DNA of 64,000 bases, from assembly GCF_022569295.1 (NCBI RefSeq), contig NZ_JAKFIA010000001.1, forward strand, positions 1,689,001 through 1,753,000, in the 5' to 3' direction. Made by a program: the position numbers and the translations under genes. The first letter of the stretch is position 1. Every line of letters starts with the position of its first letter. The DNA comes from Pedomonas mirosovicensis (lineage in GTDB: Bacteria > Pseudomonadota > Alphaproteobacteria > Sphingomonadales > Sphingomonadaceae). Shown here piece after piece: positions 1,312-46,835 of the stretch. Under the pieces are notes generated by a model. It searched no databases, was not told where the DNA came from, and saw only the letters and a list, made by a program, of their open reading frames with translations.

Positions 1312-1372
1312 CCAAGGGGGTCTCGGACCCCCTTGGATCCCCCTTTAGTTCTACGGACGCACTTGGCCACTC
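1312..1372 (+). repeat. REPIN-like hairpin repeat A (single copy)
   Basis: A perfect stem, CCAAGGGGGT with ACCCCCTTGG around a short CTCGG loop (1312-1336), is followed by the conserved flank ATCCCCCTTTAGTT then ACGGACGC. It lies in the 119-base gap between the lipid kinase and the NTase-like gene. It could stop transcription, but the flank is shared with the other copies listed here, so it is a dispersed repeat and not just a terminator. Confidence 0.7.
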
Positions 1373-1410
1373 CTGATGGCGCAAACCTTGATCCAGTTGG
1401 CAGACGATGA

Positions 1411-2385
1411 ATGACAGGTACGGCCGTTAAAGAACATCTCCCGTCGGAGGCAATAACCGACCTCGTTGCCGCGCAGCTGGAAGCGCCGGCCCATCCGGTG
1501 GTCGTTGCCTTCGCCGAGCGGGTGGCCGCACGCTACGGCGCGGCGGCCGAGGCCGTGCTGTTCTACGGCTCGGCCCTTCGCACGGGCGATCTCTCCGGCA
1601 CCTTGCTCGACTTCTACGTGCTGGTGGACAGCTACCGCCACGCCTACGGCAGCACGGGCCTTGCCATCGCCAACCGGCTCATCCCGCCCAACGTCTTCTA
1701 TGCGGAGGAAGTGATCGAGGGCGTCACCTACCGCGCCAAATACGCGGTTCTGAGCACCGCGCACTTCCGTCATCTCGCCAGCCCCGCCTGCTTCAACGTC
1801 TCGGTGTGGGCGCGCTTCGCCCAGCCGTCGCTCCTGGTGTGGGTGCGGGAAGGGCGGGAGGACATCCCCCGCTCGGTCGCCGCCGCCGTCGCGCAAGCCC
1901 CGGCGACGCTCCTGCGGGCCGCCCGCCCGATGCTGCCCGCTGAAACCACCGTCCGCGAACTTTGGGTCGCCGCCTTCGGTCTCACCTACGGCTCGGAACT
2001 GCGCGCTGAGAAGAAGGGCAAGGGCTTGGAGCTCTTCGACCTCGCGCCCGACTACTACCTCGCCATCACCGCGCCCGCCCTTGAAGCGGCAGGCATCCCC
2101 GCCGCCGTATCGGGCGATCAGGTCTCGCTTCCTGCCGCCACCGCCCCCCAGCGCCTCGCGGGCCGCATCGCGTGGTCGCTCCGCAGCCTGCAAGGCAAGC
2201 TGCTCTCCGCGCTGCGCCTCATCAAGGCGACCGCCACCTTCACCGGCGGCATCGACTATCTCGCGTGGAAGATCACCCGCCATTCCGGCGTCGCCGTCGA
2301 GATCAAGCCCTGGCACCGCCGCCACCCCATCATCGGCGGCCTCGTCCTGTTCCGCGATCTCAAGCGCAAGGGCGCGATCCGGTAA
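1411..2385 (+). CDS. Nucleotidyltransferase-like protein of the sphingolipid locus
   Basis: A 324-residue soluble protein. Near residues 50-70 it has YGSALRTGDLSGTLLDFYVL, which resembles the G-S plus downstream acidic pattern of the nucleotidyltransferase superfamily (G-S-x-A-R-G...S-D-x-D), but the usual paired aspartates are reduced to a single D before FYVL. The rest has no motif I can name. It follows the lipid kinase on the same strand, separated by one hairpin repeat. Caulobacter carries proteins beside its ceramide kinase (CpgA, CpgC) that are needed to build ceramide phosphoglycerate, and this may be an equivalent. Activity on a nucleotide or lipid is not shown by the sequence. Confidence 0.6.
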   Translation: MTGTAVKEHLPSEAITDLVAAQLEAPAHPVVVAFAERVAARYGAAAEAVLFYGSALRTGDLSGTLLDFYVLVDSYRHAYGSTGLAIANRLIPPNVFYAEEVIEGVTYRAKYAVLSTAHFRHLASPACFNVSVWARFAQPSLLVWVREGREDIPRSVAAAVAQAPATLLRAARPMLPAETTVRELWVAAFGLTYGSELRAEKKGKGLELFDLAPDYYLAITAPALEAAGIPAAVSGDQVSLPAATAPQRLAGRIAWSLRSLQGKLLSALRLIKATATFTGGIDYLAWKITRHSGVAVEIKPWHRRHPIIGGLVLFRDLKRKGAIR

Positions 2386-2419
2386 TTCCTTGAAGTTACT
2401 TTGATAAGCTTTTCTTTTT

Positions 2420-2680
2420 GCAGGGGTCTTGGGCCCCTGCACCCCGTTCGTTTTCGGGCCGCGTTTCCAGTGCATGCTGGAACCACCTCCCAATCAATTC
2501 CTTGAATCGACCGCGCCCGTCACCGGCCCTCTGTGCCTGCCCCTACAATTTTGAATAATAGTAAGGAGCAGGCGCGCCACCTTGTTCAGCACGCGCGGCC
2601 GTATGACCAGGTGCATCCTGATAAGTGAAGGGGGGCAGGGGGTTAAGACCCCCTGCAAACATAAGAACCCCAAAGAAAAA
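2420..2680. repeat. REPIN-like inverted pair B
   Basis: Two hairpins face each other: GCAGGGG-TCTTGGG-CCCCTGC type at 2420-2440 and GCAGGGGG-TTAAGA-CCCCCTGC at 2635-2656. Each is followed, reading inward, by a related flank: CCCCGTTCGTTTTCGGGCCG on the left, and on the right (reverse strand) CCCCCTTCACTTATCAGG. The pair fills the 343-base gap between two convergent genes (NTase-like and spt). Nothing else convincing lies in the gap. Confidence 0.75.
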
Positions 2681-2728
2681 GGCGGAGCCTCTCGGCCCCG
2701 CCTCACTCTTGCTCAAACACCGAAGCCC

Positions 2729-3967
2729 TCAGGCCGAGGTCAGCGGAATGTCGAGGAATTCCTGCCCCAGCGGGTAGCCGGCCGCGCCGGCGGCGGCGGT
2801 GAAGCGCTCGATGATGGTTTTCACCTGTTCCGGCCGGTGCTCGGCGCACAGCGACATGCGGATGAGGTAGAGCCCGTGCGGGGTTGCGGGCGGGCGGGCC
2901 ATGTTCACGTAGACGCCGTTTGCCAAGAGGCTGGCCCACAGCTTCACGGTCACGTCCTGATCCGGGCAGATCACGGCGATGATGGCGCTTTCCGCTTCCT
3001 TGGTGCCCAGCTGGAAGCCGGCGGCCTTGAGGCCGGCGTGCAGGTTGCGGCTGTTTTCCATCAGCTGCTTGCGGCGGTCGGCCTGGGCTGCGATCAGCTC
3101 GATGGCCTTGCGCGCGGTGGCGACCACTGATGGGGGCAGCGAGGCGGTAAACACGTAGGGGCGGCAGACGACGCGCAGGATGTCGAACTTCGGGTGGTTG
3201 GAGACCACGAAGCCGCCGATGGTGCCGACCGACTTGGAGAAGGTGCCGACGACGAAATCAACGTCATCCTCAACGCCCGCCGCTTCCACGACGCCGCGGC
3301 CCTTTTCGCCGAAGAAGCCCATGGCGTGGGCCTCGTCGTCGAGGATGGTGGCGTCATGCGCCTTGGCGACGGCGACCAGTTCCTTGAGGCGGGCGATGTC
3401 GCCCAGCATGGAATAGACGCCTTCCAGCACCACCAGCTTGCCCGCGTCCTTGGGCAGGCGGCGCAGGCGCTTGTCCAGGTCTTCCGGCGAGTTGTGCTTG
3501 AAGCGCACCACGTCGGCGTTGCCGAGCATGCAGCCGTCGTAGATGGAGGCGTGGCTGTCGGCGTCGATGACGATGTAGTCACCCTTGCCGACGAGCGTCG
3601 AGCACATCCCTAAGTTGGCCTGGTAGCCGGTCGAAAACACCATGGCGTGCTGCATGCCGTAGAAGTCGGCCAGCGTCTGCTCCAGCGCCTTGTGCCCGGC
3701 GTAGGTGCCGTTCAGCACGCGGCTGCCGGTGGTGCCGGAGCCGAACTGCTCCAGCGCGTCCTGCCCGGCCTTGATGACTTCCGGGTGGAAGGTCAGGCCC
3801 ATGTAGTTGTAGGTGCCGACCAGAATGGTGTGCTTGCCGTTGATGATGGCCTCGGTCGGGGAGACCACCTTTTCCATCACCACGCGGAACGGGTCCGGCA
3901 GGCCGGTGGCGTTCAGCGCCGCGCGCTCCGCAATCAGCGAGTCGAACTTGGCGAGAAGGTCAGCCAT
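2729..3967 (-). CDS. spt: Serine palmitoyltransferase
   Basis: A 412-residue PLP enzyme of the alpha-oxoamine synthase family that condenses L-serine with a long acyl thioester to give 3-ketosphinganine, the first step of sphingolipid synthesis. PLP-site residues are all visible: His139 in DADSHAS, Asp211 and His214 in ILDDEAHAMG, and the Schiff-base Lys245 in GTFSKSVGTIGG. The D-H-K spacing (3 and 31) matches the Sphingomonas enzyme. The ATG lies inside the end of the upstream acp gene (8-base overlap, ATGGCTGA), so translation is probably coupled. 2-amino-3-ketobutyrate ligase or KAPA synthase are the family alternatives, but the acp and acyl-ligase neighbours decide for SPT. Confidence 0.93.
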   Translation of the reverse strand: MADLLAKFDSLIAERAALNATGLPDPFRVVMEKVVSPTEAIINGKHTILVGTYNYMGLTFHPEVIKAGQDALEQFGSGTTGSRVLNGTYAGHKALEQTLADFYGMQHAMVFSTGYQANLGMCSTLVGKGDYIVIDADSHASIYDGCMLGNADVVRFKHNSPEDLDKRLRRLPKDAGKLVVLEGVYSMLGDIARLKELVAVAKAHDATILDDEAHAMGFFGEKGRGVVEAAGVEDDVDFVVGTFSKSVGTIGGFVVSNHPKFDILRVVCRPYVFTASLPPSVVATARKAIELIAAQADRRKQLMENSRNLHAGLKAAGFQLGTKEAESAIIAVICPDQDVTVKLWASLLANGVYVNMARPPATPHGLYLIRMSLCAEHRPEQVKTIIERFTAAAGAAGYPLGQEFLDIPLTSA

Positions 3968-4217
3968 TGGCCCGGTCCTTCAGGATCTTCTCGACCGCCG
4001 TTGCCACATGACCCACGGTTTCCAGGTCCGGCAGCATGTTCAGCGGCAGGGTGATGTCGAATTCGTCCTCGATTGCCGCCACCAGGTCCATCACGGTCAA
4101 CGAGTCAAATTCCAGATCATTGGCGAACGACGTGTCGGGCGTCAGCGCGATGCCCTTCTTGTTGAACGGGGCGATCAGGCGGGTGAGAACTTCGTAGATT
4201 TGTTGGTGCGACAGCAT
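3960..4217 (-). CDS. acpR: Acyl carrier protein dedicated to sphingolipid synthesis
   Basis: An 85-residue ACP. Ser39 in NDLEFDSLTVMDLV is the phosphopantetheine attachment site. A longer reading frame exists upstream, but the ATG at 4217 gives the normal ACP length and N-terminus. It overlaps spt by 8 bases and follows the epimerase gene by 192 bases. The Caulobacter ceramide locus has the same order (spt, acp, epimerase, acyl-ACP ligase), where the carrier protein presents the fatty acyl chain. That role here is inferred from synteny. Confidence 0.88.
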   Translation of the reverse strand: MLSHQQIYEVLTRLIAPFNKKGIALTPDTSFANDLEFDSLTVMDLVAAIEDEFDITLPLNMLPDLETVGHVATAVEKILKDRANG

Positions 4218-4409
4218 AAACGACGACCTAATTGAATGTGTGGGCACCCTATGCTCCGACAATATGGTCAAAGCGGGGCATGGGCAGGGCGCTGGAGCAG
4301 CTTTCGAGCAGGGCGAATGCCCTGCGGTGAACAAAAGTGCGACCAACAAAGACTTTGCCCTGCCGGTTGGCCCGTCTCATAGCGGGACTTGGGCGTTACA
4401 GCCAACCCC

Positions 4410-5369
4410 TCACAGCCACCCTTGGGCCTGATACCAGCGGGCTGTGGCCAAGAGGCCGTCGTCCAGGCAGATGGAGGGCTGCCAGCCGGTGAGGTGCTGA
4501 AGGGTGTCGTCCGCCGTGGTCCAATCGGGGTGGAGGAGTTCGCGCACCTTGCCGGGCGTCACCATCGGCACGCGCCCGAGGAACGGGGCGAGCGCCGCGT
4601 TGGCCGAGCCCAGCCCGCGCAGCAGCAGGCTTGGAACGGGCACCGAGACCACCCGCTTGCCGAGCGTCGCGCCGATGCGCCGGTAAAGCTCGATGAGGCC
4701 ATAGCCCTGCGGCTGGCCGTCGTGCACTTCGGCCAATGCCCCGTGCAGGCGGCCGTCCGCCTCGAGAGCGGCGGCGAGCGCCGTGCACAGGTCAGAGACG
4801 TGGATGAGGGAGACGCGGGCCTTTGCATTGGGCAGCGGGGCAAGGCCCAGCTTGGCGCTCTGGAACAGGCTGAGGGTTTCCCGGTCGCCGGGGCCGTAGA
4901 CGGCGGGCGGGCGCACGATCGCCCAGCTCTCCTTGGCCAGGGCGCGCACGGCCTCTTCGGCCTGCCGCTTGCTCCAGGCGTAGTCGGAGAGGTCCGGCTC
5001 CCGCGCGGCGAGCGACGACACATGAATGAACCGCTCCACCCCGCTGCCCGCGCAGGCGGCCAGCATCCGTGTCGTGCCCTCGATGTTGGCGCGGGCGAAG
5101 TCGTCGCGGGTGCGGCCCTTGATGGCGCCCGCCACGTGGATGCAGGCATTTGCGCCCTTCACCAGTTCAGTGAGCGAGCGCTCGTCCTCCAGGCTGCCCT
5201 TCACCCAGGTGATGCCGGAGTCCAGCACCGATTGGGGGCGGCGGGTCAGCGCGCGCACGTCCCAGCCGCTCCTTGCGAGCTGGCGGATCAGGTGCGCGCC
5301 GACAAAGCCCGTCGCGCCGGTGACGGCGACGATCCGGTTCGTAAGCGGCGTATGGGCGGTCCCGCTCAA
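4410..5369 (-). CDS. cerR: NAD-dependent epimerase/SDR, probable ceramide reductase CerR
   Basis: A 319-residue extended short-chain dehydrogenase. The N-terminal dinucleotide motif is VTGATGFVGAHL, and the catalytic Ser/Tyr-x3-Lys appears as VSSLA and YAWSK. The TTG at 5369 overlaps the stop codon of the preceding acyl ligase (TTGA). I chose it because the Rossmann strand begins a few residues later, and upstream codons only extend into the neighbour's coding region. In Caulobacter the epimerase between the ACP and the acyl-ACP ligase (CerR) reduces the 3-keto group in ceramide synthesis. Same place, same family, so the same role is likely. Confidence 0.82.
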   Translation of the reverse strand: MSGTAHTPLTNRIVAVTGATGFVGAHLIRQLARSGWDVRALTRRPQSVLDSGITWVKGSLEDERSLTELVKGANACIHVAGAIKGRTRDDFARANIEGTTRMLAACAGSGVERFIHVSSLAAREPDLSDYAWSKRQAEEAVRALAKESWAIVRPPAVYGPGDRETLSLFQSAKLGLAPLPNAKARVSLIHVSDLCTALAAALEADGRLHGALAEVHDGQPQGYGLIELYRRIGATLGKRVVSVPVPSLLLRGLGSANAALAPFLGRVPMVTPGKVRELLHPDWTTADDTLQHLTGWQPSICLDDGLLATARWYQAQGWL

Positions 5370-7264: not shown

Positions 7265-7368
7265 CCAGCATGGACTTTTGCCTGTCAGTCGCGTTCAAAA
7301 TCCGGCCCGACTGTGGCAGGATCAAGGCGATTGCTCCTGCATCCTGTTCCTATGAAGTGTCTTTCCAA

Positions 7369-7953
7369 ATGTCTCAAGCCCCTTTGAATACTGCGCGTTT
7401 GAAGGATCTGGCGCTGCATTACGTCTCCCGTTACGCCACCACGCGCCACAAGCTCGCCACGTACCTGCGGCGCAAGGTGCGGGAGAAGGGCTGGGAAACC
7501 GGGGCGGACGTTGACATTTCTATGACAGACGAAGGCGAGGCAAGCGCCGCCGAGGCCGCCATAAACGAGACGCTGGATTACGTCGCTCGCCTCGGCGCGG
7601 TTGATGACGCCGCCTTCGCCGAAGGGCGGGCGCGGGCGCTCACCCGGCGGGGGATGGGCGCGCACCGCATCCGGCAGGCCCTCAGCGGGGCGGGCATCGA
7701 GCGGGGCGTGGCGGACGAAGCCATTGCCGAGACGGACGCGCTGGAGGCCGCCATCGCTTTTCTTCGCCGTCGCCGCTGGGGCCCGTTCGGCGAAGGCGCA
7801 CCGCATGATCCAGACGCCCGGCGCAAGGCCTTCGCCGCCATGATGCGCGCCGGCCACCCGCCAGACCTTGCCGGCAAGCTCCTCCGCCTCGTGTCCGAGG
7901 AGGAGTTGGAGCAGTTCCCGCGCAGAGCGCGAAGGCTGATTGTTTCCTTATAA
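7369..7953 (+). CDS. recX: Regulatory protein RecX
   Basis: A 194-residue helical protein with the RecX features ALHYVSRYATTRHKLATYLRR at the N-terminus and LGAVDDAAFAEGRARALTRRGMG in the middle. RecX binds the RecA filament and limits recombination. A longer frame reaches back to 7240, but the ATG at 7369 begins just before the conserved region. It is divergent from the acyl-ligase gene and is not next to recA here. End of gene is followed by repeat pair C. Confidence 0.88.
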   Translation: MSQAPLNTARLKDLALHYVSRYATTRHKLATYLRRKVREKGWETGADVDISMTDEGEASAAEAAINETLDYVARLGAVDDAAFAEGRARALTRRGMGAHRIRQALSGAGIERGVADEAIAETDALEAAIAFLRRRRWGPFGEGAPHDPDARRKAFAAMMRAGHPPDLAGKLLRLVSEEELEQFPRRARRLIVSL

Positions 7954-7959
7954 TAAGGT

Positions 7960-8150
7960 TCTGTTTGCGGGGGGTCGCTCAGCCAGTGGCTTCGCCCCCT
8001 GCGACCCCCTTCGTTTTGCCAAAGGCGTTTCCAGAGGTCGCTGGAACCGCGCTCCAGCCAAACACTCTTTAATTCGGCCGCGTTCAGTCAGCGCCGGAAC
8101 CACGTCCCGATAGGGGAGTGCAGAGGGTCTGGGACCCCTCTGCAAAAAAA
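7960..8150. repeat. REPIN-like inverted pair C
   Basis: The left hairpin (about 7967-8002) has arms GCGGGGGG and CCCCCTGC with a longer imperfect loop, followed by ACCCCCTTCGTTTTG and a GCGTTTCCAG block also present in pair B. The right hairpin (8120-8143) is GCAGAGGGT-CTGG-GACCCCTCTGC, and read on the minus strand it is followed by ACTCCCCTATCGGGACG. The pair fills the gap between the convergent genes recX and the mocA-type gene. Confidence 0.7.
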
Positions 8151-8167
8151 TCAAAAGTATAAGTAAC

Positions 8168-13370: not shown

Positions 13371-13377
13371 GTCCACT

Positions 13378-16091: not shown

Positions 16092-16122
16092 GTTGGCGCT
16101 CCAGTTTTTGTTTGAGTTGTTT

Positions 16123-16360
16123 GCAGGAGGGACTTGTCCCTCCTGCACCTCCCATTCGTTTTTCGGGCCGCGCGTGGCGGAGCCGTCTTCCCCGCTGGAG
16201 TTCGGTTGGATCGGGCCAGGCCTGTCATCGCAGCGGGTGTCTCCTGAACGACATCAAAGGGCCGCACCCGGCACCACCGGCACGCCCGAGTTTGTGCCCG
16301 CATGACCGGGGGCGTCCCGATAAGGAATGGGGGATCGAAAGGGGGATGAATCCCCCTTTC
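16123..16360. repeat. REPIN-like inverted pair E
   Basis: The left hairpin GCAGGAGGGA-CTTG-TCCCTCCTGC (16123-16146) is followed by ACCTCCCATTCGTTTTTCGG then GCCGCG. The right hairpin GAAAGGGGGAT-GA-ATCCCCCTTTC (16337-16360) is followed on the minus strand by GATCCCCCATTCCTTATCGG then GACGC. The right half lies inside the open frame of the lysR remnant, giving it a foreign C-terminal tail. Confidence 0.75.
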
Positions 16361-17299
16361 AACCTTAACTTCCGAACTTCCTTTACGCCCCGGCCATCCC
16401 GCCCTTTGCCTGCCCCCCGCGACAGGTCGAGGAAGTTGCGGCCGATGGCGGGGATGTTGCCGCGCAGGTGCGCCAGCGCCAGCCGGGCGACGGGCTGCGC
16501 GTCGGCGAGGCTGCGGTAGGCGACGCCCGCCACCGCCAGCTGCCGCATGGAGGCGGGCACGAGCGAGACCCCCAGTTCCGCCGCCACCAGCGAAAGCACG
16601 GAGACGATTTGCGGGGCGGGCTGGCCGATAATCGGCTCGAACCCCACCGCCCGGCAGGCGTCCACCGCCGCGTCGAACAGGGTCGGGCCGATCGGCTTGG
16701 GCGTCAGGATGAAGGGGTCCGCGTGCAGGCTGGTGAGGTGGATTTCCTGCTGGTCGTCCTCCAGCGCGGCGGCGCGGGCAGAGGGCAGGGCGGCGATCAG
16801 CGGCTCGTCGGGGAAGGGGTGGGCCTGGATGTCATCGCCGTCGATGGCTCCGGGGCGCAGGAAGGCGAGGTCCAGGCTGCCGTCGCGCAGGCCGGCGACC
16901 AGCCCGTTGCTGTTGCGCTCCTCCAGCGTCAGGTCCACATCCGGGAACCTGCGGCGGAAGGCGCGGATGGAGGCGGGCACCACCGTGTTGAGCACGGCCG
17001 AGCCGGTGAAGCCCACCCGCAGCGTGCCGGTCTCGCCGCGTGCCGCCCGCTGGGCGCTGCGGATGGCCGCGCGCGCCTGGTCGGGCATGGTCCGCACCGC
17101 CTCCAAAAACGCGCGTCCGGCTTCGGTCAGCTCCGCGCCGTGCGGCACCCGGTGGAAGAGGGCGGCGCCGATTTCGGTTTCAAGGTCGCGGATCTGCTGG
17201 CTGAGCGGCGGCTGGCCGATGCCCACCGCGCGCGGCGGCTCGGGTGAAGTTGCCTTCCTCCGCCACGGCGAGGAAGTAGCGGATGTGGCGCAGCTCCAT
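16225..17299 (-). pseudogene. LysR-family regulator, frameshifted
   Basis: From the ATG at 17299 (GGAG upstream) the product reads MELRHIRYFLAVAEEGNFTR then AAAR, the start of a LysR winged helix. The continuation VGIGQPPLSQQIRDLETEIG lies in another frame. Removing one base at the CC at 17226-17227 restores a normal domain, so there is a +1 insertion. The ligand-binding domain (about 200 residues) is otherwise open. The C-terminal 40 or so residues are encoded by repeat pair E, so the normal stop appears lost or displaced. Divergent from an alpha/beta hydrolase that it would be expected to regulate. It is either a pseudogene or a consensus-sequence error. Confidence 0.75.
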
Positions 17300-17411
17300 G
17301 CGGTATCTCCAAAACCTATCACAATATACTCTATCATATATTGGACGAATGAAGCTGCCGGAGTCATCTTTTTCCCGTGACGACATTGATATGACGTTCG
17401 GAGACAGTCCG

Positions 17412-18153: not shown

Positions 18154-18199
18154 GCGCCGCGGCGCTGGTTCGCCCTCCCCAGACCAATCCCCCCGGAGA

Positions 18200-18234
18200 G
18201 GGGTGCTTGACCTTCGGTTAAGCACCCCTTTTTT
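18200..18234 (+). terminator. Rho-independent terminator after hydrolase
   Basis: Stem GGGGTGCTT with AAGCACCCC around a GACCTTCGGTT loop, followed by TTTTTTA. A textbook terminator. Confidence 0.9.
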
Positions 18235-23860: not shown

Positions 23861-23882
23861 AGTTAAAATTGGGAGATTATAC

Positions 23883-23935
23883 GCAGGAGGGTCTTAACCC
23901 TCCTGCACCTCCCATTTGTTTATCGGGCCGCGCCC
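23883..23935 (+). repeat. REPIN-like hairpin repeat F (single copy)
   Basis: GCAGGAGGGT-CTTA-ACCCTCCTGC (23883-23906) followed by ACCTCCCATTTGTTTATCGG then GCCGCG. The flank is nearly identical to that of the left half of pair E, 7.7 kb away. Its place after lpd suggests it also ends that transcript. Confidence 0.78.
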
Positions 23936-24025
23936 TGTCTTTACGGGACGCCAAAATACCAAAGCCGGGCAGGGGCCTCCCTGTCCGGCTTCTGTGTATT
24001 GGTCGGTGTGCGCGGATAAGTGCCA

Positions 24026-24047
24026 GTTTTGCAATTAATTGCAAAAC
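24026..24047. repeat. 22-bp perfect AT-rich palindrome
   Basis: The half site GTTTTGCAATT is followed directly by its exact reverse complement. It abuts the minus-strand terminator at 24043-24079. It could be a protein-binding site or a second hairpin of that terminator. Confidence 0.55.
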
Positions 24048-24079
24048 GAAAAGACCCCGCAGGGGGCATACCCGCGGGG
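24043..24079 (-). terminator. Minus-strand terminator, first of two matching copies
   Basis: On the minus strand CCCCGC...GCGGGG is followed by TCTTTTCGTTTT. No gene is known to end here, so an unannotated minus-strand transcript is implied. A 17-base core is identical to the copy at 24638. Confidence 0.6.
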
Positions 24080-24433
24080 CCTGATGGAAAGGTTCGAATG
24101 CTCTTTCCTGCAGAGATGGGTCTGACTATACGCCATCCATCCAGGCCCACAACGGCCTTATAGTCGAATATCCAGAGCCCGGTGTAACGCGGGCACAGCG
24201 GATTGAACCTGCCCTAAGGCTCTGATTGGTAGGTCGTATCCACTGCTGGGGGTTTTAAGAAATATAAAAGAATTACAACAACTTACGACCATGACTGTGT
24301 TGTCATGTCCAACGCGGCTTGCTTCCATGCTGCTTGCCCGCCTGGCTGGTTGAGGGCATCGGCAATGCATCCTGCCGACAACCGCCTTGATCCGCACATT
24401 GCGGAAATCTCCGGGCTGGAAAGGAGGATGAAA

Positions 24434-24538
24434 ATGCTAGTTTCTGCAGAGATCTTGACGGTCATTATATCACTGCTGGCGCTGTTGATCTCGGCAATCC
24501 GATTAGGATTGTCGCTTGAGAGGCGGCGCAAGGAGTAG
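24434..24538 (+). CDS. 34-residue hydrophobic peptide, possible type I toxin or small membrane protein
   Basis: MLVSAEILTVIISLLALLIS continues AIRLGLSLERRRKE: one membrane helix followed by a strongly basic tail. The Shine-Dalgarno AAGGAGG lies exactly 6 bases before the chosen ATG. Another ATG at 24428 directly follows it and is too close. Length, single helix and charged tail resemble small holin-like or type I toxin peptides. Supporting context is the convergent minus-strand hairpin terminator at 24638, and a CCTCCTT at about 24597-24603 that is complementary to the ribosome binding site. It is below the usual size limit for gene callers. Function is inference only. Confidence 0.5.
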   Translation: MLVSAEILTVIISLLALLISAIRLGLSLERRRKE

Positions 24539-24637
24539 ACGGCCGCTAACGGGAGCGCATCCGGGCGGTGCTGGATGCCTTGGGCATCGCCTGGAACCTC
24601 CTTATGGTCCGGAGCTTCCCTGTGGCCCGCATCGCCA

Positions 24638-24672
24638 AACGAAAAGACCCCGCCGGATTGACGCCAGCGGGG
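24638..24672 (-). terminator. Minus-strand terminator, second of two matching copies
   Basis: CCCCGC...GCGGGG on the minus strand followed by TCTTTTCGTTT. It shares AAACGAAAAGACCCCGC (plus-strand reading) with the copy at 24043. A minus-strand RNA beginning near 24750-24800 would end here. Confidence 0.6.
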
Positions 24673-24801
24673 CCTTGTAGAGCGAGAACTATGTTCTGCA
24701 TTCTGGAACAGGAAGAGCATAAAAAATTTCGCGTCAGCACGCAAACCCCTCATGGTCGAATACCGCACTCCGTGACCTAAATTGTTATAATTAAACACAT
24801 A

Positions 24802-24939
24802 TTAGACCACGGAGCCCTTGTAGCGGCTCGCCTCGCTTGGTCCTATGGCGATGCCCGGCTGGTTGGTTGATTGACCCGGCGGCTGCGTCCCGCTGGCCAG
24901 TATGGCCGCCGCCGCCACAGCGATTTGAGCCCCCCGCAT
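24802..24939 (-). CDS. Hypothetical 45-residue peptide with possible signal sequence
   Basis: MRGAQIAVAAAAILASG resembles a short signal peptide; the rest is Gln/Pro/Ser-rich and ends ASRYKGSVV. AGAGAGGG lies just before the ATG. It lies in the gene-poor patch with no homolog that I recognise. It may be a small exported peptide or a chance ORF. Confidence 0.3.
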   Translation of the reverse strand: MRGAQIAVAAAAILASGTQPPGQSTNQPGIAIGPSEASRYKGSVV

Positions 24940-25778
24940 AAGCCCTCTCTTGCCCTGGTCTATCCAGTCCCGGTCTGGTGCTGCCCGCCAATATACCTAA
25001 TTTTTTGTAATTAAGTACTGGCAAGGGCAGGGCGACTATCGTCAAAAAAGCATTTCAAGAGGTTTTTTCCTTGACATTTTATAGGAAAATACCTATCGTT
25101 TCCCCATCGCGATAGGGTTGTTGAGTCGGTTGCATCTCCCGTCCCTGCGTTGGGACCGCAGGTTTTTGTTGGCGCTTTGGGTGGCCTCGCCGGGCGCGCC
25201 GTTCGCGGCGCAGGGGTCATCGTCGCGGGGGCGTTCTTCCCCGCCTGGGGCAAATCAGGATCACAGGATCAAGGGCACCCTGCCGAGGTCAGGGTGGATA
25301 TGGCGCCGAACATCGGCGGACACGCCATCATGTCCGGACAGGACCGCAGGGGGCGGTCAGCGGCACAGGCGCGCCGGGTTCGCGTATGAAAGTCGGTTCA
25401 TGTGTTCAGGGTCCGGTGGCGGTTGCTGTCACCGGTTATGCCGGTACGGTGCCCTTGTGGCACGGTTGAGGGCCGGTACGCGTATCCTTTGCCCAACTCC
25501 GGACAACGGAGTCTCCGGACAGCGGGCAGTCGTCCAGAGCAGCAGGCGGGGCGTCAGCTCACGCTTGCGGCGAAAAGCCAATCACAAACGCTTGCAGCGG
25601 CAAGCGAACCGCGACCGCCTGCGACGGCAGGCCTGTCCCCAAACCCTCGATCCGCCCCGCCCGAGTTGACCCTGATCCACCGACACCGAAACGGCCCTCA
25701 ACCACCGGCACCACCGCAGCAGGATTGATCGGCACGAAAGAGCAGGAAGGGGCCTCGCGTTATGAGGCTTAATGAGGC
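24940..25778. other. 839-base region without a supported gene
   Basis: It contains a strong-looking promoter at 25071 and then about 650 bases of GC-rich sequence with short hairpins (for example GTGCC-CTTGT-GGCAC near 25449-25463, and GCTTGC/GCAAGC near 25590). Frames of 79-183 codons exist on both strands, but none has a ribosome binding site, family motif or convincing start. It may be a non-coding RNA or the remnant of a gene. Confidence 0.4.
25071..25116 (+). promoter_or_regulatory. Sigma70-type promoter with overlapping inverted repeats
   Basis: TTGACA (25071-25076), 17-base spacer, TATCGT (25094-25099). Inside the spacer is ATAGG-6-CCTAT (25081-25096), and CCTATCG at 25092 pairs again with CGATAGG at 25110-25116. 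This looks like a repressed promoter. No recognised gene follows. Confidence 0.5.
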
Positions 25779-27844: not shown

Positions 27845-27888
27845 TCGGGCGCTGGGCGGAAAAGGGGAAGGGGTGATTGCAGGGGGCT

Positions 27889-27935
27889 TGCCCCCTGCTG
27901 CCCATCCGTTTCTCGGTTGCGGTTCAGGTTCTAAA
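27889..27935 (+). repeat. REPIN-like hairpin repeat G (single copy)
   Basis: GCAGGGGG-CTTG-CCCCCTGC (27889-27908) followed by TGCCCATCCGTTTCTCGG then TTGCGG, a slightly diverged version of the shared flank. Located just after the CoA-transferase stop. Confidence 0.68.
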
Positions 27936-36368: not shown

Positions 36369-36746
36369 CTCTGGTTGAGGCCGGTTGAGGAAAGACGGGT
36401 TTGCAGGAGGAGCCCCGTGCGCGCAGGCGCAAGGGCCACGGCGGCCAGAAGGCCAGGGAGCAGGGCGCTGGCCCGGCCCACGGGTTTCAGAGAGCTCATG
36501 CAATCTCCCGCTGTTAGCCGGGCGAACGGTAGCATGCAGTTGCGTTCGCGCAAGCGTGGGTAGAATGGTTGCAATAATCCCTTAATGCGGCCATGGTCGC
36601 GGAGGCAGGCTTCCCCGGAAGTCCGCCATTTTCCTGAGGCGCGCAGTTTCGGCTCGTCTTATTCTGCTGCGCGTGTGCAACACTGTATTTGAACTGCCAC
36701 GCTTTCACGTTAGAGTGCTGCATTGGTTCATCGTCCTTGGCAGAGC
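36369..36746. other. 378-base gap between ntrC and ntrY
   Basis: No supported gene. Short minus-strand frames overlap the flanking genes and lack motifs. There is a GGCGGACTT/AAGCCTGCC-like imperfect hairpin near 36598-36625. The ntrY promoter must lie here, but I cannot place it. Confidence 0.45.
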
Positions 36747-39002: not shown

Positions 39003-39055
39003 GGCGGGCGACGGAGCTGTCAGGAACCAGGGTGAGGATATAACAAGAGTGGGTC

Positions 39056-40456
<1,401 letters not shown>

Positions 40457-40678
40457 CGGAAGGGGTGGGCCAAATAGGGCTGGGCGCGGCCGTAATACAA
40501 CCATGCCGCAGGCGTTTTAGGTTGTGTTTCTTGGGCCGCGCTGCCATAGTTGACTAAGAAACCTCTAGCATAACAACTATCTAGCGTTTTCACTCGTAAT
40601 AATACGTAAGGTCCGTTCACGGTTGTTCCTGTGAGGGAGCAGCCGGGCGAACCCAAAAAGGAGCCAAGCGAGGGCTTA

Positions 40679-40930
40679 ATGGCGGAAAAACCAAACAACC
40701 TTCAGGACATTTTTCTGAACAATGTTCGTAAGAACAAAACGCCGGTGACGATGTTCTTGGTCAATGGCGTCAAGTTGCAAGGCGTGATTACCTGGTTCGA
40801 CAACTTCTCGGTTTTGCTGCGGCGCGATGGGCATTCGCAGCTCGTTTATAAACATGCCATCTCAACCGTCATGCCGGCCGCTCCGATCTCCCTGTTCGAG
40901 CAGGAAGGTCAGGCTGGCGAGGGAGCGTAA
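40679..40930 (+). CDS. hfq: RNA chaperone Hfq
   Basis: 83 residues: [40 protein letters not shown] and the Sm2 motif [10 protein letters not shown]. Hexameric RNA chaperone for small RNAs. The ATG at 40679 gives the standard N-terminus; the frame is open 16 codons earlier. hflX follows in the usual hfq-hflX order, 8 bases downstream. The 222-base gap before it likely contains the hfq promoter, with a TAATAAT near 40597. Confidence 0.97.
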
Positions 40931-40938
40931 CGGTACCT

Positions 40939-42279
40939 TTGTCCAAACAACGGCGTAACAGTTCGTCTGACAAGACTGGAACGGCTCAGTCCGGAAACGG
41001 GCTGGGCCGTGCGCCTTTGCGCGCCCTTGTTCTGCATCCGGAACAGCGCAGTGAAGGGCAGGGTCCCCGCTCGGTCGAGGCCGAGCTGGAAGAGGCCGTT
41101 GGTCTTGCCGAGGCCATTTTCCTCGAGGTCGTGGCCGCCGAAAGCGTGCCCATCCGCCGCGCCCGTCCTGCAACCCTGTTCGGGCCGGGGCAGGTGGAGC
41201 AGTTGGCGGCTCTCGTGAAGGAGAGGGAGGTCGGCCTCGTCGTCATCAATGGCGCTGTGTCTCCGGTTCAGCAGCGCAACCTCGAGAAATCGTTCGGCTG
41301 CAAGGTCATCGATCGCACCGGCCTGGTGCTCGAAATCTTCGGTGAGCGGGCCCACACCCGCGAAGGCGCGCTCCAGGTGGAGCTGGCGCACCTTATGTAC
41401 CAGCAGAGCCGCCTGGTCCGCACCTGGACCCACCTTGAGCGTCAGCGCGGCGGCTTCGGCTTTCTTGGCGGCCCTGGTGAAACTCAGATTGAGACCGACC
41501 GCCGCCTGATCCGCGATCGCATCGCCAAACTGCGCCGCGAGCTGGAGGATGTGCGCCGCACCCGCACCCTGCATCGCCAGCGCCGCCAGAAGGCGCCCTA
41601 TCCGGTGGTCGCGCTGGTGGGCTACACCAACGCGGGCAAGTCCACGCTGTTCAACCGCATGGCGGGCGCGTCCGTCATGGCGGAGAACCTGCTGTTCGCC
41701 ACCCTTGATCCCACCATGCGGGCGATCAAGGTGGGGCGGGAGGACAAGGTGATCCTCTCCGACACGGTGGGCTTCATCTCCAACCTGCCGACCCAGCTCG
41801 TCGCAGCCTTCCGGGCCACGCTGGAAGAAGTGGTGGAGGCGGATATCGTGCTGCACGTGCGCGACATCTCCCACCCGGACACCGAGGCCCAGAAGCAGGA
41901 TGTAATGTCCGTTCTCGATGAGATGGGCGTGCTGGAGGATGGCGGGCCGGTCATCGTGGAAATCCTCAACAAGGTCGACCAGTTGCCGCCCGAGGCCCGT
42001 GCTTCGGTCGAAGGGCTGGCGGCGCGGGACGACAATGTTCTGGCCGTCAGCGCCTTGACCGGAGAAGGGGTGGACACTCTGCTCGCCCGTCTTGGCGACT
42101 ACCTCTATGCCCACGCCCGGCTTTACGACATGGACCTCGATGTTAGCGACGGCCGCCGCCTCGCATGGCTCTACAACAATGGCGATGTGCTGGAGCGCCG
42201 GGACGAGGGCGAGACGGTCCACGTCCGCGTGCGCCTCACGCCCCAGCAGTACGGGCGCTATCAAGAGCTTGCGGGGTAG
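40939..42279 (+). CDS. hflX: Ribosome-associated GTPase HflX
   Basis: 446 residues. The N-terminal HflX domain includes ARPATLFGPGQVEQL and VINGAVSPVQQRNLEK, followed by RGGFGFLGGPGETQIETDRR, and the G domain has GYTNAGKSTLFN (G1), DTVGF (G3) and NKVD (G4). It binds the ribosome and splits stalled or hibernating ribosomes. The TTG start at 40939 is 8 bases after hfq. Ends at repeat pair H. Confidence 0.94.
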   Translation: MSKQRRNSSSDKTGTAQSGNGLGRAPLRALVLHPEQRSEGQGPRSVEAELEEAVGLAEAIFLEVVAAESVPIRRARPATLFGPGQVEQLAALVKEREVGLVVINGAVSPVQQRNLEKSFGCKVIDRTGLVLEIFGERAHTREGALQVELAHLMYQQSRLVRTWTHLERQRGGFGFLGGPGETQIETDRRLIRDRIAKLRRELEDVRRTRTLHRQRRQKAPYPVVALVGYTNAGKSTLFNRMAGASVMAENLLFATLDPTMRAIKVGREDKVILSDTVGFISNLPTQLVAAFRATLEEVVEADIVLHVRDISHPDTEAQKQDVMSVLDEMGVLEDGGPVIVEILNKVDQLPPEARASVEGLAARDDNVLAVSALTGEGVDTLLARLGDYLYAHARLYDMDLDVSDGRRLAWLYNNGDVLERRDEGETVHVRVRLTPQQYGRYQELAG

Positions 42280-42283
42280 TTTA

Positions 42284-42375
42284 CGCAGGGGTCTCGGACC
42301 CCTGCGTCCTTTCATTTTAGGGACGCACCTAGGCTTTTTAAACGAGCGGTAGTGCAGAGGGGCTGCGCCCCCTGA
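42284..42375. repeat. REPIN-like inverted pair H (short)
   Basis: The left hairpin CGCAGGGGT-CTCGG-ACCCCTGCG (42284-42306) is followed by TCCTTTCATTTTAGGGACGC. The right hairpin CAGAGGGGC-TGC-GCCCCCTG lies at about 42354-42374. Only about 50 bases separate them, so this is the most compact pair, located between the convergent genes hflX and mazG. Confidence 0.65.
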
Positions 42376-42397
42376 AAAGCGCAACAAAAGCAAAATA

Positions 42398-43240
42398 CTA
42401 AGACTGCTTTTTCACCTTTTGCCACAGCACTTCCATGGCATCCAGATCCAGCTTGGAGAAGCCTTCGCCGGCCGTGTGCTCCATGGCGCGGAAGCGGCTT
42501 TCGAACTTGTGGGTTGCCCGGCGCAGGGCGCCTTCCGCATCAATATCCAGCTTGCGGGCGAGGTTGACGACGGCGAACAGCAGGTCGCCCACTTCATCCT
42601 CAACCCGGTCGGCGTTGCCCGTAGAGACGGCCTCGCGCACTTCCTCCAGTTCTTCCTCGATCTTGGGCACCACATCCTCGGCGGCGCGCCAGTCGAAGCC
42701 CACGCGCGCGGCGCGAGCCTGGATTTTCTGGGCGCGGAGCAGGGCGGGTAGGGCGGTTGCCACCCCATCGAGGGCGCTGTGCGGCTCCGGCCCCTTAGCG
42801 GCCTTGCCGGCCCGCTCGCGCGCTTTCAACTCTTCCCAGGCCCGGGTCTGCTCCTCGGCGGTCTTGACGGTAGCGTCACCGAACACATGAGGATGACGGC
42901 GGATCATCTTGGCATTGATAGCTTCGGCCACGCTTCCTATATCAAAGGAGCCTTCTTCCTCCGCCATTCGGGCGTGATAAACCACCTGAAGAAGCAAATC
43001 GCCCAATTCCTCGCGCAGGGCAGACCGGTCTCCAAGGCGAATGGCCTCGGCGACTTCGTAGGCCTCTTCGAGGGTGTAAGGCGCGATGGTCTCGAAGGTC
43101 TGTTCCAGATCCCAGGGACATCCGCTTTCAGGGTCGCGCAGGGTGGCCATTATCTCGACCAGGCGGGCGAAGGTTTCTGCGGCTTTGGCTCGTTGTTCCG
43201 GCAGCGGTGAAGCGTTCAAACCTTCGGACATGCAGTTCAT
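42398..43240 (-). CDS. mazG: Nucleoside triphosphate pyrophosphohydrolase MazG
   Basis: 280 residues with two MazG domains: DPESGCPWDLEQTFETIAPYTLEEAYEV with EELGDLLLQVV, and a second with KIEEELEEVREAV and VEDEVGDLLFAVVNLARKL. The EExxE...ExxD acidic sets bind magnesium. It hydrolyses NTPs, including ppGpp precursors, in house-cleaning. ATG at 43240 or 43231. Confidence 0.94.
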   Translation of the reverse strand: MNCMSEGLNASPLPEQRAKAAETFARLVEIMATLRDPESGCPWDLEQTFETIAPYTLEEAYEVAEAIRLGDRSALREELGDLLLQVVYHARMAEEEGSFDIGSVAEAINAKMIRRHPHVFGDATVKTAEEQTRAWEELKARERAGKAAKGPEPHSALDGVATALPALLRAQKIQARAARVGFDWRAAEDVVPKIEEELEEVREAVSTGNADRVEDEVGDLLFAVVNLARKLDIDAEGALRRATHKFESRFRAMEHTAGEGFSKLDLDAMEVLWQKVKKQS

Positions 43241-43309
43241 CCCATGTTCAGGGTATATAGGCGAAAAAGGCTTTAATGCACCAAGGCGTGCGTCAGCAAG
43301 GAGACAGCG

Positions 43310-43567
43310 ATGGCTTGGACCTCAACGCGATTGGCCGTTTTGGGAGCGATTCTGCTGGCATCCATCGTGTCGGTGATCGCTGTCGGCCAGCGTGAACTGT
43401 CCAGGAGCAAGCCCGCGATGGCCGAGCTGAGCCTGGCGGCTTATCCCGACAACAGCATGCTGACACCGGCCGGCTACCGTCATCAGGACCATATGAAGTC
43501 CGCTTTGATCTACGAACGTCGGGCTCTGGCCCGGTTGGGCCTTGAGCCGCATTTCGCGCGGCTTTAA
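43310..43567 (+). CDS. Hypothetical 85-residue membrane-anchored protein
   Basis: AAGGAG precedes the ATG. Residues about 6-26 (RLAVLGAILLASIVSVIAVG) form a membrane helix or signal anchor, and the remainder (ELSRSKPAMAELSLAAYPDN) is a short periplasmic domain with YRHQDHMKSALIYERRAL. No family recognised. Divergent from mazG. Confidence 0.6.
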   Translation: MAWTSTRLAVLGAILLASIVSVIAVGQRELSRSKPAMAELSLAAYPDNSMLTPAGYRHQDHMKSALIYERRALARLGLEPHFARL

Positions 43568-43670
43568 TCGGCGTGGCATAAGGGCAGAGATCCGAATTTC
43601 CTAAATTTCCTCAGCCAAGGGTTCCATTCCCGGCCTTGATGAGAAGCCAGCAAGAACTCTTCCATTTCCT

Positions 43671-44114
43671 TCACTTTTCCTGAGCAGGCGTGGGCCTGGC
43701 TCGAGACCGGGCATGACGCCACCATGCGTCAATGGACCATGCACCAGGGCCGAAGGCGGCCAGCAGCAGAAAGCCGCCCGCAATCGCAAGATTCTTGTTG
43801 AAATTGATCATCTGCGCCTGATCGGATGGCACAAGGTGAAACAACACGGCCGTGGCGATGGCGAAAGCGGCCATGCCAAGGCCAGCCAAACGCGACAGGA
43901 GACCGAAGGCCACAGCCAGGCCGCCACCAATCTCGACGCAGATGACCAGCGGCAGCAATGCGCTTGGCACGCCCTGGGTTTCCATGGTCTGGCTCGTGGC
44001 CGCATAGGTGGCGATCTTCGACCATCCGGAGGTAATGAAGATGTAAGCCAGCAGCAGCCGACCGATGAGCGCCAGGGCTGGCTCAAGTCGGGTAAGGCCA
44101 TGGGCGTCGGTCAT
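43671..44114 (-). CDS. DoxX family membrane protein
   Basis: 147 residues with four membrane helices: ALIGRLLLAYIFITSGWSKI, LLPLVICVEIGGGLAVAFGL, AGLGMAAFAIATAVLFHL and LAIAGGFLLLAAFGPGAWS. The F-I-x-S-G-W-x-K-I motif and H-x-x-x-x-D-Q pattern are typical DoxX. Function of such small DoxX proteins is mostly unknown, with links to redox metabolism. The ATG at 44114 follows GGAG. Confidence 0.85.
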   Translation of the reverse strand: MTDAHGLTRLEPALALIGRLLLAYIFITSGWSKIATYAATSQTMETQGVPSALLPLVICVEIGGGLAVAFGLLSRLAGLGMAAFAIATAVLFHLVPSDQAQMINFNKNLAIAGGFLLLAAFGPGAWSIDAWWRHARSRARPTPAQEK

Positions 44115-44362
44115 GGTCAGGCTCCGGGAGTTATTGGGCATCACGCGCAACGGCGGGCGATCGACACCATGGCTGGGAAATCCGGTCCGCAGGAAAGGTT
44201 CCTCACGTTGCAGTGAAGCCCAATCGAAAGACGCATAATCTATGTTATGTTAAATATCGTCCATGGGAAGGCTGCCGAGCCCCCCATTTCCGTGCCATTC
44301 CGGATTGCCGCGGATGGTGCCGTTTGCCATGATCGGCCGTCATCGACCTGCCGGAATGACGT

Positions 44363-44809
44363 ATGACTGTTTCTCCGCCTTCGGCCCACGAGCGAACGCT
44401 GCACTTTGATACCGAGGCGCTTTCCGCCTTTCTCGATCAAGCCTTTTCGCCAAAGGCGCGTGGACTTCTCGGGGCCGTCGAACTGGTCGAGCTGGATCAC
44501 GTCCGTATGAGGCTGGACCCCAGGCCTTCCATGCTTCGCCCGGGTGGCGTTGTTTCAGGCCCGGCCATGATGGGTCTGGTGGATGTTGCCGCCTATGCCG
44601 TGATCCTGGCCCATATCGGCCCTGTGGCCATGGCTATGACCAACACCCTCACCATCAACTTCCTGCGCGTCTGCCGTATGGAGCCTGTGTATGCCGATGC
44701 CCGGTTGCTTAAGCTGGGCCGTCGCCTGGCCTCGGTCGACGTCCGCCTCTGGCAAGGCTCGGAAGACCGGTTGGTAGCACAGGCGACGGTCGGTTACGCA
44801 TTGCCCTAG
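44363..44809 (+). CDS. PaaI-family hotdog-fold thioesterase
   Basis: 148 residues. LRPGGVVSGPAMMGLVDVAA holds the conserved glycine and active-site Asp region, followed by TNTLTINFLRVCRMEPVYADARLLKLGRR-type strands. Likely hydrolyses a small acyl-CoA. Its stop overlaps the convergent mipA-type stop by 4 bases. Substrate unknown. Confidence 0.83.
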   Translation: MTVSPPSAHERTLHFDTEALSAFLDQAFSPKARGLLGAVELVELDHVRMRLDPRPSMLRPGGVVSGPAMMGLVDVAAYAVILAHIGPVAMAMTNTLTINFLRVCRMEPVYADARLLKLGRRLASVDVRLWQGSEDRLVAQATVGYALP

Positions 44810-45603
44810 AATCGATAGCCCACGCCCACGACCATGGCCGGCTGCCACTTGTGCTCATTGATCGGGCTATCGGCCGCATCTCCAAGATATCGGGTCAGCA
44901 CGGCAGTGGCGTTGAGGTGCCAATGGCGGTTCAGCGCGACAAGCCCGGTCAACGACATGGAAACGTCCTTCAGTCCGCTATCAGCGTCGAATGCTGGCAG
45001 GCCTGAACGGGCGGATTGCTCGGCGCTGATGCCGAAGTACCGCTGCGTATGCTTGTTGCTGGCCCAGGTTGCCGAAACGGCTGGAATCAGCATCATCTGC
45101 TTGCTGGGCTTGAACTGGTAGTTCGCCGTGACATCGACCAGCGTGCCATCCGTGCCGCCGAAGCTGCGGGTGAGGCCGGCAGTCAGGGCCATGTTGTCGA
45201 TGGGCCGATAGCGGGCGAATACCCGGCCGCCCACTGCATCCTTCACCTTTCCAAGGCCTTCCGGCGAATCCTTAGCCCGGCGCCCACGCACGAACACCGC
45301 GCCCGCGCCGACGTCGATCTTGTCCGTTTCCAAGAGGAAAGCGCCGAAGCCGTCGCGGAAGTTGGCGAAGAACGACTTGTAACGCAGGTCGAACATCGGC
45401 AGCGGCAGTATACGATAGTCGTCCGAGCCCTCGTAGTCCGGTACGGCTGCGATGCCGACGCCAACCATCCCGGAAAGTTCGTCCGACTTATCTTCGGCAA
45501 GTGCCGGAGCCGCGCCGATGGCAAGCCCGGCCGCCAGCGCCAGAGCGGCCACCCTGACGCAGCTGGGCACATGAACCTTGGCCTGAACCTTGGGATGCAA
45601 CAT
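44806..45603 (-). CDS. MipA/OmpV family outer-membrane protein
   Basis: 265 residues with a signal peptide (ALALAAGLAIGAAPALAED) and a beta-barrel pattern ending in the C-terminal aromatic GVGYRF. VGVGIAAVPDYEGSDDYRIL is the family hallmark near the mature N-terminus. MipA/OmpV proteins are envelope proteins; some scaffold murein enzymes. The ATG at 45603 follows AAAGGGAAA; a start 14 codons earlier is less likely. Confidence 0.86.
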   Translation of the reverse strand: MLHPKVQAKVHVPSCVRVAALALAAGLAIGAAPALAEDKSDELSGMVGVGIAAVPDYEGSDDYRILPLPMFDLRYKSFFANFRDGFGAFLLETDKIDVGAGAVFVRGRRAKDSPEGLGKVKDAVGGRVFARYRPIDNMALTAGLTRSFGGTDGTLVDVTANYQFKPSKQMMLIPAVSATWASNKHTQRYFGISAEQSARSGLPAFDADSGLKDVSMSLTGLVALNRHWHLNATAVLTRYLGDAADSPINEHKWQPAMVVGVGYRF

Positions 45604-45770
45604 GGAATTTCCCTTTAGCTGGAAAAGATACAGCATAACCCTCACGGTTCGCTAACGCGTTTCGGGTTTATATTGATCCATTGCGGAAATAGTATAGCGC
45701 CCGCTTGGCCACCCTTGCCTGAATGTCGGAAAGACTTGCCGATTTCAATGGTTTACTCGCCATTGATGCC

Positions 45771-45787
45771 GGAGGGGTGCCCCCTCC
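45771..45787. terminator. Hairpin before MBL-fold gene end
   Basis: GGAGGGG-TGC-CCCCTCC, a perfect 7-bp stem in the 223-base gap between mipA and the MBL-fold gene. It lacks the conserved repeat flank, so I treat it as a possible terminator. Confidence 0.4.
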
Positions 45788-45826
45788 TCTTCCATGCATC
45801 ACGGTGCCAGATGCCGCTGGGACAGC

Positions 45827-46585
45827 TTACAGCTCAACTTCCATACCGTCGTAGCCGGGCTCGACATGGAGCGGCAGGCGGGCCTTCAGTTCGTCGTAGT
45901 CCAGTTCCCAGTTCATGTGGGTCAGGATGGCCCGCTTCGGCTTGAACTTGTCGATCCACTGGAGGGTCTGGCCGAGATGCGGGTGCGTCGGGTGCGGATC
46001 ATAGCGCAGGGCATCGACGATCCACAGGTCCAGATCATAGAGGTATTGTTCGGACTGGGCCGGAATCGCATTCAAATCCGTCGTATAGGCGAGCTTGCCA
46101 AAGCGGTAGCCGATCGAGGTGATGCCGCCGTGAACAAGCGGGAACGGTTGTACCGTCACCGGGCCGATGGCGAGCGGGCTTTGTTCGTCAATCACATGCA
46201 GGTTGGCAATGGCCGGGTAATCTTTGAAGCCCGTGAAGATATAGCCGAAGCGCTGGCTGAGGGTGGTGGCTGTCGCCTCATTGGCATAGCACTCAAGGGG
46301 CCGGCGGTTGGAGTGGTAGAGGCCGCGCAGATCGTCGATGCCGTGGGTGTGGTCTGCGTGATCGTGGGTGTAGAGCACCGCATCGAGCTTCTTCACCTCC
46401 GCGTCCAGCAGCTGCTCGCGCAGGTCCGGCGAGGTGTCCACGAGGATCTTGGTGCCCTGATCCTCTACCAGGATGGAAACGCGGCGGCGGCGGTTCTTCG
46501 GGTTCTTCGGGTCGCAGCGCCCCCACAGGTTGCCCACCCTCGGAACGCCGCCCGACGTACCGCACCCTAGAATACGAACCTTCAT
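45827..46585 (-). CDS. MBL-fold metallohydrolase (PhnP-like)
   Basis: 252 residues. ILGCGTSGGVPRVGNLWGRC and YTHDHADHTHGIDDLR (metal-binding HxHxDH) place it in the metallo-beta-lactamase fold near PhnP, which cleaves cyclic phosphodiesters. LVDTSPDLREQLL and LTHMNWELDYDEL are also conserved. Stands downstream of the tatD cluster on the same strand, separated by repeat pair I. The natural substrate is unknown. Confidence 0.88.
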   Translation of the reverse strand: MKVRILGCGTSGGVPRVGNLWGRCDPKNPKNRRRRVSILVEDQGTKILVDTSPDLREQLLDAEVKKLDAVLYTHDHADHTHGIDDLRGLYHSNRRPLECYANEATATTLSQRFGYIFTGFKDYPAIANLHVIDEQSPLAIGPVTVQPFPLVHGGITSIGYRFGKLAYTTDLNAIPAQSEQYLYDLDLWIVDALRYDPHPTHPHLGQTLQWIDKFKPKRAILTHMNWELDYDELKARLPLHVEPGYDGMEVEL

Positions 46586-46668
46586 AAGCCTCTACCTCGT
46601 GTCATGCCCGGCGTGCCGCTCTTATCGCAACGCATGGAGTGCAGGATAGCCTTCGGCTTTGGTTTTTC

Positions 46669-46835
46669 GCAGGGGATTTCAATCCCCTGCACCCCTGATC
46701 TTTCATGGCTGTGTGCGGCACAACCGGCTCGGCCGTATCTGCACTGGAAATCTCAATGGGCCGCAACCGTTATAAAGCGTGCGGCCCTTTTAAACGAACG
46801 GGAGGTTGCCAAGAGGGGTAAGCCCCTCTTGGCAA
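46669..46835. repeat. REPIN-like inverted pair I
   Basis: The left hairpin GCAGGGGAT-TTCA-ATCCCCTGC (46669-46690) is followed by ACCCCTGATCTTTCATGG. The right hairpin TTGCCAAGAGGGG-TAAG-CCCCTCTTGGCAA (46806-46835) is followed on the minus strand by CCTCCCGTTCGTTTAAAAGG then GCCGCACGC, close to pair E. The pair fills the gap between tatD and the MBL-fold gene, both on the minus strand, so it is not limited to convergent gaps. Confidence 0.75.

Follow-up and report, generated by a model that had tools for sequence, protein, structure and literature searches.

The genome of Pedomonas mirosovicensis carries a family of small, non-coding hairpin repeats, dispersed between genes and often arranged as inverted dimers, which we regard, on balance, as REP-type elements of REPIN architecture that were mobilised in trans in the past and have been retained under constraints on stem pairing, on a mirror-matched tract and on dissimilarity between dimer partners. 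The mirror coupling of stem and tract is the new part of this finding. The family came to notice in a window of 64,000 nucleotides, for which a sequence-only reading had described GC-rich hairpins with alike flanking bases. Direct reading bore out both at the noted sites except 11046, where the flank is absent and a covariance model of the family, termed R1, gave only a partial match of 13.9 bits; thirteen of the copies claimed by that reading are family members, and the 11046 hairpin is excluded.

R1, built from 11 copies of the window, re-found all 11 at about E ≤ 5e-8. A search of the whole genome (3.63 Mb), the matches of which serve as held-out evidence beyond the window copies, returned at least 150 copies at E ≤ 6e-4 on both contigs. 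Over 864 kb, sampled as stretches that were for the most part evenly spaced, R1 gave 96 matches at E ≤ 0.1, and extrapolation suggests a total of about 300–400 copies in the genome. The stems of these 96 copies differ while pairing is kept, as had been proposed: their covariation score was 0.439, compared with 0.218 ± 0.013 in shuffles and at most 0.135 with slid partners. A scan for the hairpin plus the distal flank, in which the pyrimidine tract was ignored, yielded 163 copies (164 before removal of duplicates), as opposed to about three in shuffled sequence. TTCGTTT was conserved to 79–94% per base among the 163 copies and GGGCCGCG to 68–97%, figures inflated by the selection of these copies on flank score. 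In all, the sampled stretches cover about 36% of the genome (about 1.3 Mb). None of the repeats reached the gathering score of an Rfam family. These results confirm that the family is a real structure, present above chance; the reading had named a lack of further copies and a chance-level flank as outcomes that would speak against it, and neither occurred.

A half-unit consists, in order, of a T-rich run, a hairpin with a purine 5′ arm, a short pyrimidine tract, TTCGTTT and CGGGCCGCG(CCC). The stems are purine-rich and mostly 9–13 bp long, typical 5′ arms being GCAGAGGG, GCAGGAGGG, GCAGGGG(G) and CAAGGGGG, and the usual linker is TGCA. In some copies the small loop is replaced by a recurrent insert, approximately GCTCAG(C/G)CAGTG(G/C)CTTCG, which is itself a small hairpin (7969–8010 in the window; in other stretches L113:19765, L127:1403, L128:14745, L133:3200, L141:10730 and L144:12623); another recurrent loop insert contains GTGCGCGGAGGCGCAC.

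Single copies in the window are copy 1 (1311–1360, plus strand; hairpin 1311–1337, class D, AAGGGGG, flank TCCCCC...CGGACGC; 57.1 bits), which lies between tandem genes, copy 8 (23878–23931, plus; hairpin 23883–23906, class B, with flank; 51.2 bits) and copy 9 (27873–27920, plus; hairpin 27879–27898, with flank; 32.5 bits). Copy 8 is followed by a strong hairpin at 23962–23991, with which a region of about 1.8 kb lacking a confident gene call (23930–25770) begins. The five facing pairs are as the reading had described them. At a convergent junction, copy 2 (2413–2462, plus; hairpin 2419–2441, class C, with flank; 50.9 bits) is the left dimer half and copy 3 (2613–2662, minus; hairpin 2635–2656, class C, with flank; 51.1 bits) the right one. 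Copy 4 (7961–8019, plus), the left half of the next dimer, scores only 12.5 bits because its loop is extended by an insertion, GCTCAGCCAGTGGCTTCG; the right half, copy 5 (8102–8148, minus; hairpin 8119–8144, class A), combines GAGGGG with CTCCCC and has a short flank (42.3 bits). Copy 6 (16118–16171, plus; hairpin 16122–16147, class B, GGAGGG with CCTCCC, with flank; 56.0 bits) is the left partner of copy 7 (16312–16365, minus; hairpin 16337–16360, class D, GAAAGGGGG with ATCCCCC, with flank; 52.7 bits). Copy 7 sits within the 3′ end of a LysR-type ORF (16225–17367, minus), which reads through the repeat hairpin and thereby gains about 60 residues; the helix-turn-helix of this ORF matches Pfam only from profile position 22, and the gene may be decayed or mis-started. 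The junction between the HflX and MazG genes holds copy 10 (42278–42326, plus; hairpin 42283–42307, class C, with flank; 45.8 bits) as left half and a degenerate right half, copy 11 (42353–42375, minus), which was read by eye and falls below the R1 threshold. Copy 12 (46663–46712, plus; hairpin 46669–46690, with flank; 41.2 bits) is antisense to both of its neighbours, the minus-strand MBL-fold and TatD genes, and its dimer partner, copy 13 (46781–46837, minus; hairpin 46806–46835, GAGGGG with CCTCCC, linker TTGGCAA, with flank; 39.4 bits), is sense to TatD.

Orientation within pairs is strongly biased: 55 pairs face inward, with the flanks inside, one faces outward and five are head-to-tail. 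Dimers mostly span 110–250 bp, and solo halves are common. For most short dimers examined, one strand is predicted to fold as a cloverleaf, in which two hairpins flank a central stem formed from both flanks. The heterodimer at 16112–16370, folded as DNA, is predicted to do so (z −4.2), and the C-C dimer at 2409–2666, with its same-class halves, is predicted as one long hairpin without a cloverleaf. The flank is thus probably conserved because the two flanks form the third helix of the dimer. The sequence-only reading had seen no role for the flank; two likely roles, as central stem of the dimer and as mirror tract (see below), take the place of that statement. Co-evolution of the flanks within dimers was not detected, the segments M1, M2 and post-M2 being no more alike within pairs than between pairs (z −1.4, −2.2 and 0.5, respectively).

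Dimer partners avoid belonging to the same class: 4 of 54 dimers were same-class, with 11.1 expected (P 0.007), and identical arms occurred in none, with 2.5 expected (P 0.08). Long perfect palindromes are unstable, which would be a sufficient reason for partners to be dissimilar. The same argument has been made for REP heterodimers, a preference for which is published for most REP families and was described as lacking an obvious explanation (PMC3733652). The present family gives a clear example of such avoidance between dimer partners.

With genes called by a simple codon-usage finder at 774 junctions in 41 stretches, elements were present at 34 of 136 convergent and 22 of 527 tandem junctions and at none of 111 divergent ones; the larger copy set placed two copies in junctions called divergent. 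At tandem junctions, the sense half mostly lies 5–30 nt after the stop codon and its antisense partner further on; 24 of the 40 copies there are sense and 16 antisense; the window dimer at 46669/46835 likewise lies between two minus-strand genes. These layouts indicate that the dimer, rather than the single hairpin, is the natural unit and that orientation does not simply follow the gene; a rule of copies being oriented with the gene was rejected, as convergent junctions satisfy it trivially and tandem ones contradict it. REPs in Sphingomonas wittichii and Pseudomonas entomophila have been described with the same pattern of location (PMC3733652). Copies just past stop codons may be the ones that survived, if promoters and coding sequence are intolerant of insertion.

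The pyrimidine tract that follows the hairpin mirrors the purine arm. Copies with the arm GAGGG (class A) carry the tract CTCCC in 28 of 31 cases and CCCTC in none, and those with GGAGGG (class B) carry CCTCCC in 40 of 45 and CCCTCC in none; together, 68 of 76 have the mirror tract and 0 of 76 the Watson-Crick complement. Where the G-run of the arm is uninterrupted, the C-run usually is too (12 of 77 interrupted), and the lengths of the two runs are correlated (rho 0.29, p 0.0065). Mutual information between arm and tract exceeded permutations by 1.26 bits (z 29). The excess between arm and loop was 0.41 bits, smaller although the loop adjoins the arm, and that between the arm and the M2 base in the distal flank was about zero. 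Hairpins with a six-base mirror-matched third tract occur at 22 per Mb in this genome, whereas 1.15 Mb from relatives contained none. Stem class as a lineage marker was rejected, since distal-flank similarity carries no class signal (nearest neighbour of the same class in 0.276, with 0.262 expected). The mirror relation spans only 4–6 triads, and an additional G at the stem top leaves the tract unextended, GGAGGGG still taking CCTCCC.

A mirror relation is a parallel complement, which is the polarity of a Hoogsteen third strand and unlike that expected from base pairing or copying. The coupling suggests selection for an intrastrand three-stranded fold. Selection may act on each repeat such that it folds into an intrastrand triple helix within the cell, arm and third tract co-evolving through exchange of triads (A.A-T or T.A-T replacing G.G-C or C.G-C). 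We consider this bolder reading somewhat less likely than not; if true, it would provide many natural compensatory tests of triplex formation within one genome. The order of the strands is R-Y-Y in transcript sense, which would need protonated C, and R-R-Y on the opposite DNA strand, which corresponds to a purine motif that in DNA is stable at neutral pH. A close parallel is the BoxC/PIT/TM_ECO element of E. coli, likewise an intergenic hairpin with a third, mirror-matched tract, the inverted pairs of which always combine two types (A with B), a likeness in pairing (PMC4666352). That motif adopts its fold in vitro, but footprinting in vivo did not detect it (PMC4666352). The strand order of BoxC is Y-R-R, whereas here the third tract stands 3′ to the Y arm of one strand and 5′ to the R arm of the other; BoxC/PIT has about 10 triads, as against 4–6 here, and TM_ECO lacks the 3′-end location of the present family. 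As the E. coli motif is highly conserved, with one conserved 37-mer in BoxC/PIT, it offers little compensatory evidence; several stem classes whose tract follows the arm, as found here, are the evolutionary signature sought, and designed swaps would be straightforward.

The coupling could instead have been inherited, if four or five founder modules of arm, loop and tract, mirror-matched by chance, were shuffled by gene conversion. A few classes do dominate, and loop type is partly associated with class (the excess of 0.41 bits above), so some of the arm-tract coupling reflects shared descent. Yet common loops are shared by three or four classes, coupling to the arm is threefold stronger for the tract than for the loop although the loop is nearer the arm, and the same mirror rule, run length included, holds in every class; we regard inheritance as a rather doubtful account of the coupling. 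It would touch the triplex step only and is compatible with the reading as REP dimers.

Two other explanations bear on the elements as a whole. One holds that they are host-selected terminators or mRNA 3′-end stabilisers, in which hairpin, C-tract and UUCGUUU end or protect the transcript of the preceding gene. Like rho-independent terminators, they place a GC-rich hairpin after the stop codon, mostly 5–30 nt past it and never at divergent junctions of the 41-stretch sample, and sense-strand G.T mispairs, tolerable in an RNA hairpin, outnumber A.C mispairs by 47 to 23, an excess that is suggestive only, because several of the cases are related by descent and a few come from hairpins outside the family. 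However, the pyrimidine tract of 4–6 nt and about one further base stand between the stem and TTCGTTT, so that the U-rich tract is displaced, beginning about 5–8 nt after the stem; the 16 antisense copies among 40 at tandem junctions do not fit a terminator, and neither the conserved GGGCCGCG block nor inward pairing is explained. Moreover, canonical terminators occur at 9 of 32 convergent ends with an element and at 30 of 166 without, and, over gene ends, at 11 of 46 and 61 of 473, respectively; these frequencies are about alike, if anything higher with the element, so that replacement of canonical terminators by it is not supported. The suggestion that the copies may also serve as terminators thus stands only weakly, and we consider a host-selected terminator or stabiliser function unlikely as the explanation of the family. 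Ordinary U-tailed terminators are seen at 18199–18229 and 2679–2704; the latter (2704–2679, minus) lies between copy 3 and the stop codon, showing that terminators and repeats coexist. The elements could also be derelict MITEs of an ordinary DDE insertion sequence, with hairpin and flank as a long terminal inverted repeat, which would account for inverted ends around a variable centre and for dispersed, lineage-specific copies. But the two end stems of a dimer are less alike than chance would give, the opposite of terminal inverted repeats, solo halves are common, and about 1.3 Mb held no ORF-bearing version with the same ends; no repeated ORF lay between outer copies in the sampled stretches (about 36% of the genome). 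A MITE origin appears highly improbable.

We thus return to REP-type elements of REPIN architecture. Like REPINs and GTAG-tagged REPs, which are associated with RAYT transposases, the family comprises hundreds of hairpin repeats between genes, forms inverted dimers with clover-like predicted folding, lies at gene 3′ ends and shows compensatory stem changes (PMC3116915, PMC3733652). It differs from them in a long conserved flank inside the dimer and in the mirror tract, and it lacks a RAYT/Y1 gene, the GTAG tag and the near-identical population of REP 16-mers typical of REPINs. The CGTC-tagged REPs of Alphaproteobacteria likewise have no dedicated transposase, are mostly dimers, often with heterodimers preferred, and adjoin ORF 3′ ends (PMC3733652), but CGTC is absent from the hairpin ends here, and the stems are purine-rich and mostly of 9–13 bp. 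Within 8 nt of either hairpin end, CGTC/GACG was found in 0 of 163 copies and GTAG/CTAC in 1 of 163. The pattern CGTCATTCCCGC-N-GCGGGAAT, which we take to be CGTC-REP-like, had no exact match in this genome. A RAYT-type transposase, postulated elsewhere in the genome by the sequence-only reading, was not borne out: no RAYT/HUH transposase was found in the host's own genome, with 0 matches to PF01797 (Y1_Tnp) at 97.9% completeness. At the level of the dimer, the architecture is like that of a REPIN or a CGTC-REP, and the features that define either were sought and not found. The label REPIN-like accordingly holds for architecture (inverted dimers, intergenic location, many copies, restriction to a lineage, absence from a syntenic junction) and not for mechanism, as transposase, tag and recent near-identical copies are all absent. 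We envisage that the repeats once spread as structured DNA in single-stranded form, with mobilisation in trans by an enzyme that has since been lost or escapes recognition. Their stems would since have diversified yet kept Watson-Crick pairing as well as the mirror match between purine arm and tract, which would be expected of a third tract that binds the hairpin as an intrastrand triplex, and would have stayed unlike those of the partner hairpin, such that the dimer avoids collapse into one long palindrome.

The family is private to the host lineage among the lineages sampled. Among 40 relatives, which represent 24 further genera of the family as well as other members of the order but include no congener, R1 gave no match at E ≤ 0.001. 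At stricter thresholds, with only the best candidates per genome scored, it likewise gave none in 300 genomes from the order and 384 from the class, and 80 HflX loci (850 kb) held zero copies. The HflX-MazG junction, 118 nt here, is filled by the dimer. In the relative KLAP49, HflX and MazG are convergent and separated by about 10–15 nt, as judged by eye; among 73 relatives with both genes, about half of the junctions are at most 50 nt, and the syntenic junction is often at most 60 nt, with the element absent. By HflX, the nearest named relatives are a Pseudomonadota MAG without further classification (72%) and, for the most part, members of the Sphingomonadales (about 58–64%), which suggests a Sphingomonadales-like alphaproteobacterium. 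The best non-self similarity among sampled copies was about 87% over 76 nt; none were near-identical. The repeat was thus probably gained in the host lineage, and long ago, the case for gain by insertion resting on one syntenic junction and on relatives at no more than 72% protein identity.

Elsewhere in the sampled stretches, a near-identical ORF (99–100% identity) occurs twice (L115:4357–5151 and L153:4281–5073), one copy being called as two ORFs, and is probably an insertion-sequence gene. In the window, positions 55058–55160 (plus), downstream of a tRNA at 54536–54622, match the Rfam alphaproteobacterial sRNA ar35 with 51.6 bits.
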